This document shows, in pieces, positions 56,647 through 58,920 of a DNA stretch of 64,000 nt. Position numbers and translations under genes: made by a program. Within the stretch, counting starts at the first letter, position 1. The number at the start of each line of letters is the position of its first letter. Under the pieces are notes generated by a model, which saw only the letters and a program-made list of their open reading frames with translations, made no database searches and was not told the DNA's origin. The DNA is from Rhodobacterales bacterium HKCCE4037 (lineage in GTDB: Bacteria; Pseudomonadota; Alphaproteobacteria; Rhodobacterales; Rhodobacteraceae), in contig WVSM01000003.1 in the NCBI GenBank assembly GCA_015689645.1, positions 186,001 to 250,000 on the forward strand. Direction: 5' to 3'.

Positions 56647-56853
56647 TCAGACGAGCGACAGGTTCACTGCGCTTTCGCGGCCGTCGCGGCCAGCTTCGAG
56701 GTCATAGGTGACCTTCTGGTTGTCGGCGAGGCCGGTGAGGCCCGAACGCTCGACTGCCGAGATGTGGACGAAAACGTCCTTGCCGCCCGTCTCGGGTGCA
56801 ATAAAGCCGAAGCCTTTGGTGGTGTTGAACCATTTCACAGTGCCGTTGGCCAT
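56647..56853 (-). CDS. cold shock protein (CspA family)
   Basis: The 68-residue single-domain protein has both RNA-binding motifs: NGTVKWFNTTKGFGFI (RNP1 KGFGFI) and DVFVHISAV (RNP2 VFVHI). It is an RNA chaperone. AGGAG is a good ribosome binding site. The long leader (56854 to about 57050) with a GTGCAAGCTTGCAC palindrome 196 bases upstream could hold cold-responsive structure, as in other csp genes; that is inference. The gap 56854-57197 has no protein gene. Confidence 0.95.
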   Translation of the reverse strand: MANGTVKWFNTTKGFGFIAPETGGKDVFVHISAVERSGLTGLADNQKVTYDLEAGRDGRESAVNLSLV

Positions 56854-57197: not shown

Positions 57198-57851
57198 ATG
57201 CCGAGATACCGCCGCCCGTTCGATCCGTGTCGTCCCGTGTACTTTACCGTGTGTCTGGCAGATCGGGGATCGAGCGCGTTGATCGACCATCTGGATATCT
57301 TGCGAGAGGCGGTGCGGGTGACGAAAGCGGATCGGCCGTTCGAGATCTTGGCTTGGGGTGAGCGGCGGTCCGCGCAGCGGCGAGCCGTCCAGTGGACGGA
57401 TCGAGGCGCGAACGGGCGGAGCCCAGGCGTCTTGCCGGATCACATGCACGCCGTGTGGCGGTTGCCGGAAAGTGATGCGAATTTTTCGCAACGGTGGGGG
57501 CGGATCAAGGCGCGGTTTTCGCGGGATGCGCGGCGAGCCGGGTTGGCGGCGCCGTGCGACGGTGCCGGGGGTGGGGACGGCGGGACAAGTCCCGCCCTAC
57601 GGTCTGGCGCGAACCGTAGGGCGGGATTTATCCCGCCGACCGAAACGCCACGGAAAGGCGAAGCGGGCATTTGGCAACGCCGCTTCTGGGAACACCATTG
57701 CCGCGACGACCGCGATCTGGAGGCGCATATCCGCTATTGCTGGCTGAACCCGGTGAAGCACGGGCTTGTCGAGCGGCCCGTGGATTGGGCGGCGTCGTCG
57801 ATCCACCGTGACATGCGGTTGGGGCGGATGGAGCCGGAATGGTTTGTTTGA
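57198..57851 (+). CDS. REP-associated tyrosine transposase (RAYT, Y1/HUH family)
   Basis: The 217-residue protein starts MPRYRRPFDPCRPVYFTVCL and has the HUH motif LPDHMHAVW (His82, His84) and a Tyr180 in HIRYCWLNPVKHGLVERP, the pattern of RAYT transposases of the IS200/IS605-like Y1 group. The length exceeds the usual 150-190. Two in-frame insertions explain it: residues 54-77, and about 117-152, which contain a palindromic repeat and a REP pair respectively (see repeats). It is single copy here, with no flanking inverted repeats. Whether it is still active is uncertain. Confidence 0.82.
   Translation: MPRYRRPFDPCRPVYFTVCLADRGSSALIDHLDILREAVRVTKADRPFEILAWGERRSAQRRAVQWTDRGANGRSPGVLPDHMHAVWRLPESDANFSQRWGRIKARFSRDARRAGLAAPCDGAGGGDGGTSPALRSGANRRAGFIPPTETPRKGEAGIWQRRFWEHHCRDDRDLEAHIRYCWLNPVKHGLVERPVDWAASSIHRDMRLGRMEPEWFV
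57357..57428 (+). repeat. 72-bp in-frame palindrome-bearing insertion in the RAYT gene
   Basis: RAYT homologues pass directly from the ...EILAW strand to VLPDHMH. Here 24 extra codons (57357-57428) lie between. They carry CCGTCC-AGT-GGACGG (57385-57399), a perfect 6-bp inverted repeat, and are a multiple of three long. The extra residues are basic and look non-structural. The insertion point is inferred from family knowledge, not from an alignment. Confidence 0.55.
57579..57637. repeat. two inverted REP-like hairpins (BIME-like) inside the RAYT gene
   Basis: GGCGGGACAAGTCCCGCC (57579-57596) and GGCGGGATTTATCCCGCC (57620-57637) are each small hairpins, followed or preceded by CTACGG (57597-57602) and CCGTAG (57614-57619), so the pair is in head-to-tail inverted orientation with 11 bases between. 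The reading frame continues through. REPs are the substrates of RAYTs, and here the element is within the transposase gene itself. Confidence 0.85.
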
Positions 57852-58101: not shown

Positions 58102-58314
58102 ATGGCCGAACGCAAATCTGCGTTGAAACGCGCACCAGAGCGCCCCGAACTCGAGGCGCTTTACGACGCAGCCAAGACTAGGGAACTCACAGACGAGGAA
58201 CTACAACGACAACGAGCCAGCTTCGTGTATGGTAACGCGCCCAAGGGCTCGCGCATCACGAAGGAGTCCGCTGAAGCGTCTGTTGGGAAGTTCCGGTTGA
58301 AGGCTTCTGCGTAA
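58102..58314 (+). CDS. putative antitoxin partner of the Fic protein
   Basis: The 70-residue basic protein (SALKRAPERPELEALYDAAKTRELTDEEL, then RASFVYGNAPKGSRITKESAE) precedes the Fic gene with a 12-base gap. Its place and size match Fic antitoxin genes; the FVYGNAPxxSRITKE segment is, from memory, typical of proteins encoded just before Fic genes. I see no canonical [ST]xxxE[GN] inhibitory motif. AGGAGGGC precedes the ATG. The codon use is AT-richer than neighbours. Confidence 0.6.
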   Translation: MAERKSALKRAPERPELEALYDAAKTRELTDEELQRQRASFVYGNAPKGSRITKESAEASVGKFRLKASA

Positions 58315-58326
58315 GGAAATCTATCG

Positions 58327-58920
58327 ATGTTCGTACTGGAAGAAGAAGACGCGGATCTCTTCGATAGGGTTCAGGAGCAGAACCTGAACCGGCAGTACGA
58401 ACTTCTGACAAATTGTATTGAAATCGGCCTCACAAAGGGGCCGGTTTCTTTCGACAAGTATCTACTTTGGGCGCTCAACCACGTCGCGGTTGCTAACATC
58501 TCTCAGTTTGGAGGTAGGTTTCGAAAAGAGCCTATCTATGTTGGCGACCACATCCCACCTCACTTTAACGAAGTAGAAAATTGGATGGACCGGTTCGTGT
58601 CTACGGTCCAAGAAAACTGGTACATTTGGACGCCAACCGAGCTCGCTGCATATGGGCTGTGGCGGATGAATTGGATACACCCATTCATAGAAGGCAACGG
58701 GCGAACAGCTCGTGCAGTGTGCTACTTTTTACTCTGTGTTCGTTCCGGCGCACTGTTACCAGGCGACAAAACAGTCCCGGAACGCATCCGCGAAAACCGC
58801 CGAGGTTACGAGGAAGCGCTCATCGCGGCTGATCGAGCTTGGGACGCTGGCCACTTGGATTTCTCGCGCATGGAAGATTACCTAGCTGGATTAGTAGCGG
58901 CACAACTCAGCGAGTCTTAG
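58327..58920 (+). CDS. Fic family AMP-transferase (toxin-like)
   Basis: The 197-residue protein has the Fic motif HPFIEGNGRTAR (118-129) with catalytic His118 and the anion-binding Gly-Asn-Gly-Arg, so adenylyl transfer to target hydroxyls is expected. A nearby TNCIE sequence at the N terminus resembles the inhibitory helix but lacks the Gly/Asn after Glu. AAGGAAA precedes the ATG. With the upstream small gene it forms a likely toxin-antitoxin module, AT-richer than flanks, between the RAYT gene and ettA. Confidence 0.85.
   Translation: MFVLEEEDADLFDRVQEQNLNRQYELLTNCIEIGLTKGPVSFDKYLLWALNHVAVANISQFGGRFRKEPIYVGDHIPPHFNEVENWMDRFVSTVQENWYIWTPTELAAYGLWRMNWIHPFIEGNGRTARAVCYFLLCVRSGALLPGDKTVPERIRENRRGYEEALIAADRAWDAGHLDFSRMEDYLAGLVAAQLSES

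Follow-up and report, generated by a model that had tools for sequence, protein, structure and literature searches.

A RAYT transposase gene of a Rhodobacterales bacterium carries its genome's own REP pair in a variable loop and a separate structured element near its HUH motif

The gene for a REP-associated tyrosine transposase (RAYT) in Rhodobacterales bacterium HKCCE4037 contains two in-frame insertions of different kinds. One is an inverted pair of the genome's own REPs, located in a variable surface loop, and the other is a 72-bp copy of a structured interspersed element. RAYTs are enzymes thought to move and spread short palindromes of the REP type. Our reading, to which we assign a probability of roughly 70%, is that RAYTs of this kind carry cognate REPs in a permissive loop, with repeated exchange of the resident repeats, and that the 72-bp insert is a separate matter. 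The window, meaning the whole stretch of DNA that was analysed, comprises 64,000 nucleotides (contig WVSM01000003.1, positions 186,001 to 250,000). The original prediction placed a RAYT gene at 57198-57851 with a 72-bp in-frame insertion containing CCGTCCAGTGGACGG and an inverted, in-frame pair of REP-like hairpins at 57579-57637. All of these were recovered at the positions given below, alignment with homologues confirmed both insertion points, and further copies of the REP and of the 72-bp element were found in the genome. The accompanying interpretation survives in part: the insertions are in frame and the pair belongs to the REP family of the host genome, but the two insertions differ in kind. 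A single element for both was rejected because sequence, tag and copies differ. The features are as follows, in window coordinates.

56647-56853, minus strand: cold-shock (csp) gene beside the RAYT gene
57198-57851, plus strand: RAYT open reading frame, 217 aa
57357-57428, plus strand: in-frame copy of the structured interspersed element (72 nt, residues 54-77; 77.6 bits with covariance model R1)
57385-57399: palindrome CCGTCCAGTGGACGG, the longer hairpin of the 72-bp element
57525-57671, plus strand: variable alphaC-beta4 loop (residues 110-158), expanded by the REP pair; placed by alignments and model secondary structure
57579-57602, minus strand: REP 1, a CCGTAG-tagged hairpin read as GGTSPALR; placed by exact sequence and genome copies
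57614-57637, plus strand: REP 2, a CCGTAG-tagged hairpin read within NRRAGFIPP; placed by exact sequence and genome copies
58102-58917: small protein with no family match, then a Fic-family protein, directly behind the RAYT gene

The window RAYT matches the NCBIfam model NF047646 with 135.5 bits (curated cut-off 80), and a Pfam search of the protein gave no match. Its nearest solved relative is the E. coli TnpAREP structure 4ER8, both by sequence (E 1.8e-29) and by comparison of the predicted fold with 4er8_A (E 1.3e-12, TMt 0.81). The AlphaFold model has a mean pLDDT of 72.6 and a pTM of 0.70. The HUH motif is DHMH (residues 81-84) and the tyrosine motif is YCWLNP (residues 180-185). In an alignment of 33 RAYTs, from which L074 was left out, D81, H82, H84 and P185 are invariant, and M83, Y180 and N184 are conserved in at least 90% of the rows. 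The best-scoring named relatives in the protein scan are mostly Rhodobacteraceae. The genome (3.84 Mb in 36 contigs) also encodes a second RAYT of 158 aa (contig C11:14021-14479, covered by L010/L012), which has a short loop and neither insertion. REPs of another stem, GTAGGGTGCACATTCATTGTGCACC (GTGCAC type), adjoin this second gene, as does a gene whose translation reads by eye like a sigma-70 factor.

REP 1 (GGCGGGACAAGTCCCGCC-CTACGG) and REP 2 (CCGTAGGGCGGGATTTATCCCGCC) form an inverted, REPIN- or BIME-like pair with the tags facing inward, and both repeats are translated in frame. The arms of the pair (57575-57603 and 57613-57641) are each 29 nt long and 90% complementary, and the predicted DNA fold of -31.1 kcal/mol (z -8.3) is equalled by none of 200 shuffles. 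The sequence CCGTAGGGCGGGA is present in 10 exact copies in the genome, no two of which lie close together except those in the RAYT gene; the reversed-pattern control gave none. Likewise, the 22-nt REP GTAGGGCGGGACTTGTCCCGCC, from which REP 2 differs at two apical bases, has 10 genome copies at no more than one mismatch, one of them in the RAYT gene, with a control count of 0. The loop repeat thus has GTAG at the foot of a palindrome and is multicopy, as GTAG REPs are. The 3.6 kb of the window on either side of the pair contain no further GTAGGGYG. Elsewhere in the genome, the same REP is also present in frame in a CbiE/CbiT fusion gene (L008 1490-1513; C32:83359-83382), where it is again read as GGTSPALR and falls within the stretch matched by the CbiT model.

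The REP pair expands a loop between a helix (residues 96-113) and a strand (164-167) of the AlphaFold model, named alphaC and beta4 from the order of elements in that model. The pLDDT drops below 50 at residues 125-148, and 4ER8 has only a few residues at this point. Two hairpins of at least 8 bp arise in only 0.05% of 2000 synonymous recodings of the window loop, and a single 8-bp stem in 5.6%. Synonymous recoding of this loop and of the survey loops described below ruled out chance palindromes as the source of the hairpins.

REP-coded peptides occupy the same loop in homologues, both among the 68 loci of the protein scan and within the genus, with stems that differ between genomes. In a first set of 68 RAYT records (one per locus; L098, L099, L100, L101, L103 and L078 left out), a hairpin of at least 7 bp is present in 25 of 27 loops longer than 25 aa and in one of 41 shorter loops (L049). 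These loops hold 45 hairpins, whereas 60 synonymous recodings average 4.25 and never exceed 8. A family survey then drew evenly on 394 genomes (393 genera), 122 of which have the RAYT type of the window when counted at E <=1e-20. The survey loci are the 130 of 150 matches listed, window included, and 125 of their loops were parsed (the exceptions being L236, L288, L291, L294 and L298). Among these listed matches, tagged REP hairpins are found in 54 of the 125 parsed loops, or about two fifths, and the window RAYT is therefore not a one-off case. The hairpins are again a property of long loops, with tags in 52 of 61 loops above 25 aa and in 2 of 64 shorter ones, while hairpins of any kind are present in 54 of the 61 and a hairpin of 7 bp is lacking in the other 7 (all among the matches listed). 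Homologues with the extra residues and no repeats would have spoken against the original prediction, and in both sets the long loops mostly hold repeats. The long survey loops contain 81 tagged hairpins, whereas 100 synonymous recodings yield 0.72 on average and no more than 4. Per length, the loops carry 83 tagged hairpins in 10,767 nt and the flanking gene body (318 nt before and 230 nt after the loop) carries 10 in 60,313 nt. Ten survey loci have loop DNA identical to that of first-set loci, and so the two data sets overlap.

Plain tolerance might produce such a distribution. REPs would jump everywhere near RAYTs and only the alphaC-beta4 loop would bear them, leaving a pattern of survivorship with no role and no link between enzyme and repeat. 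About half of the RAYTs indeed have REPs in their flanks as well (30 of 61 with long loops and 33 of 64 with short loops, among the survey matches listed), and the loop is predicted to be disordered. Long loops in L171, L185, L212 and L257 retain a REP-like peptide although they have no 7-bp hairpin, and the CbiE/CbiT gene shows that a REP can be carried in frame elsewhere. However, tolerance sits less easily with tagged hairpins in a single loop of 54 of 125 RAYTs when the commonest REP stem counted has 1-117 copies per 3-5 Mb genome where it is present. It is also at odds with the nearly constant reading frame of the tags, which is shared by 42 of 48 reverse and 29 of 31 forward tags in the survey loops among the matches listed. 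Because one forward frame creates a stop and the others are open, a near-single frame means that ancestry or peptide selection must contribute. The observed frames also count against our own reading, being a better fit to a few ancestral insertions that were later overwritten, or to peptide selection, than to many free insertions. We give tolerance as the full account somewhat less than even odds.

The repeats in the loop also tend to be those of the genome in which the gene resides. Four REP stem patterns were counted in 19 genomes (as exact-stem or one-mismatch patterns), and the cognate test used the 15 in which the loop stem is one of the four. The loop stem is the commonest of the four in its own genome in 13 of these 15, a result reached by 1 of 100,000 label shuffles, whereas another stem outnumbers it in the remaining two (G015 and G024). 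The counts include the loop copies themselves, and hence the match in G008, G020 and G023 derives only from copies at the RAYT locus: in G020 and G008 the only stem copies found sit inside the RAYT gene, and in G023 all four are at its locus. By these exact-stem or one-mismatch counts, a REP can survive solely within its RAYT gene. Flanking repeats give a similar picture. In 23 of 29 survey cases the loop arm matches an arm of a REP in the gene's own flank (at most one difference in 7 nt), compared to a mean of 12.3 and a maximum of 20 in 2000 shuffles of the loop-flank pairs. The other six loops do not match their own flank REPs.

Close relatives can hold different REPs. The loci L052 and L060 share 92% DNA identity before the loop and 89% behind it, and their loop stems differ, being of the GGTGGGG and GCCGGGC types, respectively. 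The loop of L058 holds a REP pair, and that of its relative L057 (81% and 79% identity before and behind) is only 19 aa long. A quick tree of 46 rows, in which support for many branches is weak (6 of 43 are starred), requires at least 16 switches of stem type and 18 of arrangement. The gene itself appears to be more settled than its repeats. A cold-shock gene is present in the fetched locus at 17 of 68 protein-scan loci and at 13 of 30 survey loci (window included; the two sets overlap), and at none of 77 controls. This recurrent neighbour suggests long residence of the RAYT gene while its loop REPs turn over.

From these data, we propose that alphaC-beta4 is an expandable surface loop of a long-resident RAYT, in which the host genome's own REP pair would land and be kept. 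Only insertions that keep the frame would survive, and the loop REPs would for that reason be translated, mostly as G-x-x-P turn peptides. The loop would gain, swap and lose REPs repeatedly within the family and would usually hold the REP type current in the genome. In this way, the enzyme gene and its presumed substrate could stay physically linked even as dispersed REPs fade. We infer that the RAYT itself made the loop insertions through a cis preference, and that this linkage, rather than mere tolerance, accounts for the retention of the repeats.

A regulatory role for the pair is unlikely in our judgement. The RAYT would bind its own inverted-REP hairpin, in mRNA or in lagging-strand DNA, and thereby damp its own synthesis. 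The strong DNA fold of the 29-nt arms (z -8.3) and the cognate nature of the loop pairs are both compatible with such a circuit, and down-regulation of RAYTs by REP hairpins is mentioned in the accessible parts of PMC3733652. However, 64 of the 125 parsed RAYTs are short-looped and 62 of these have no tagged REP, and the orientation of the tags varies between RAYT lineages of the survey. A further and rather improbable extension of the linkage reading is that the REP-coded loop is functional, with one stretch of DNA serving both as binding target and as protein sequence and so coupling the transposase to its substrate. Because the loop is encoded by the REP itself, each change of the resident REP would then rewrite the enzyme loop at once.

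The 72-bp block lies between strands beta2 and beta3, right behind Trp53 and right before the sequence VLPDHMH. It replaces one Val codon of the homologues, for a net gain of 69 nt. In the model, it interrupts a core strand and has a pLDDT below 50 beside the active site. The possibility that this insert is also a REP was rejected by inspection of the alignment consensus, which has no GTAG or GTGG tag at the foot of either hairpin. Rather, it is one copy of a roughly 75-bp element dispersed through the family. Of 61 relatives, 15 contain DNA resembling the element (the genome itself, five of the genus, eight others of the family and one outside it), although some of these matches span about 30 nt or less.

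The predicted structure of the element, derived from 22 copies of which the window copy is one, consists of a basal stem, two hairpins and a trailing hairpin. Changes on both sides are seen in 15 of 23 base pairs, and 97.0% of cells are paired. The covariation score is 0.448 compared to 0.148 when shuffled (0 of 500 reach the observed value), and it is 0.083 at most when the partners are slid. The trailing hairpin is not supported by covariation because it has no changes on both sides. Individual copies range widely in stability relative to shuffles, with z values of -1.69 (window), -0.48 (L105), -3.02 (L014) and -3.87 (L121), and a single copy thus need not fold better than its shuffles. The covariance model built from these copies (R1) found the element in 19 of 22 genomes, in numbers from at least 1 to at least 35 (the latter in G013), including at least three in the window genome; the numbers are minima, as the scoring covered a part of the candidates. 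Tandem arrays of two to three copies with a spacing of about 71-75 bp are found in other genomes (L113/L122, L125, L126). By inspection, several copies lie directly behind apparent gene ends, where GGTGAG can supply the stop codon. A comparison of 10 loci with Rfam (cmscan, E <=1) returned four hits, all below the gathering score and none overlapping the element.

Covariance-model matches inside RAYT genes were found in the window, in L088 (Roseicyclus) and in L100 (Jannaschia) among 74 sources, namely the window plus 73 loci retrieved in searches for RAYTs; in L059 the element lies outside the RAYT gene. A further case, L111 (G039), entered through the element search. These three are the only RAYT loci examined, besides the window, with the element inside the gene, and all three genes are broken: L088 is frameshifted, L100 is scrambled and L111 is deleted behind the element. 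On the right, all four have VLPDHMH or what is left of it, and the left junction lies behind the Trp of AW in the window, L088 and L111. We propose that RAYT genes in more than one lineage have acquired copies of the element before VLPDHMH, most of these genes now being broken. The insertion in the window would be an event independent of the REP pair, perhaps a disabling one, in which a structured non-REP element arrived beside the HUH motif.

Whether the window gene is itself a recent pseudogene, killed by this insert with its frame left open by one-in-three luck, is a closely balanced question on which we lean slightly towards no. The broken state of the other three genes with the element near the same site suggests inactivation, as does the low model confidence of the insert next to the active site. 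Against this, the HUH and tyrosine motifs are intact and the open reading frame has no stop or frameshift. At 59 near-invariant alignment columns the protein differs at three, one of them through the insert itself, and the other 32 rows differ at 0-7. The insert keeps the frame and the remaining protein appears intact, so activity of the enzyme is possible.

Recurrence at one position raises the possibility of site-specific, homing-like insertion into this codon of RAYT genes, a proposal we treat as tentative and somewhat doubtful. It would explain why the element precedes VLPDHMH or its remnant directly at four loci, and why three of them share the left junction. It would also fit the fact that L060, which is 96% and 92% identical to L088 before and behind the loop, lacks the element, and that the element copies differ in sequence. 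However, the left flank in L100 is YCW and not AW, and no common target is evident, by inspection, beside other copies. The window is also the sole carrier among the 130 survey loci (among the matches listed), and because the window, L088 and L100 entered the set by way of the window gene, rates cannot be read from them. A junction-pattern search of 394 genomes gave five matches, of which the window alone is a RAYT with the element and the other four are in unrelated frames; the exact pattern would miss altered junctions such as that of L111.

The neighbouring genes offer another explanation for part of this recurrence. The small protein and the Fic-family protein behind the window RAYT are possibly a toxin-antitoxin pair. 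Beside the broken RAYT of L111 there is the truncated beginning of a Fic gene, a fragment that matches the Fic-family gene of the window, and a relative of the small protein is also legible there in three-frame translations. These shared neighbours make a shared history of the two insertions possible, through descent or transfer of one event. In L111, a gene that reads as IS-like follows the small protein and the Fic fragment.

REPs inside transposase genes have precedents. The accessible parts of PMC6006769 (Quentin et al. 2018) describe in-frame REPs within tnpAREP genes as a 'unique feature of subclass 2.4', a group with the HUH motif NH[IFV]H and a beta3-alphaC insertion that is found in Cyanobacteria, Bacteroidetes and various phyla. 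As in that subclass, the REPs described here lie within the transposase gene, keep the frame and are located between the HUH and tyrosine motifs. However, the present RAYTs have DHMH and an alphaC-beta4 insertion, and they come from genera of one family that include named Rhodobacteraceae. Assignment to subclass 2.4 was rejected on the basis of the HUH motif and the insertion point. The same parts of that paper give DHLH, WE and YIHYNP as the motifs of subclass 2.2 (the E. coli type); the window RAYT instead has DHMH, WQ and YCWLNP, yet its nearest solved relative is still E. coli 4ER8. They also note that the alphaC-beta4 region of subclass 2.2 neighbours the region that recognises the REP hairpin, and that such genes are few or absent in any one alphaproteobacterial genome.

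The repeats resemble REPINs (PMC3116915) and GTAG REPs (PMC3733652), as described in the accessible parts of these papers, in being multicopy GTAG hairpins that form inverted pairs, adjoin RAYT genes and often supply stop codons. The difference is that the present pair is part of the RAYT coding frame. PMC3733652 also covers REPs that lie in frame in many unrelated genes, and these intragenic REPs and the Rickettsia palindromic elements are similar, by description, in that palindromic repeats are translated in frame. In the present case, unlike in these, the host gene encodes the presumed mobiliser of the repeat. The accessible part of PMC8266576 has nothing on internal REPs. Among open-licence papers, we found none on REPs in the alphaC-beta4 loop or on the 72-bp element. 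What is new here is a known principle in another clade, the E. coli-like RAYTs, and in another loop, together with evidence that the loop REPs track the cognate type and are exchanged.

The genes described here bear on the question of how RAYTs and their REPs remain matched over long periods. They form a large natural series in which cognate REPs are carried, swapped and lost at one defined loop, which makes this question testable by comparison. They also show that a supposedly selfish repeat has repeatedly supplied the coding sequence of a protein loop. Finally, insertion of a structured element next to the active site may be one way in which RAYTs are switched off in nature.
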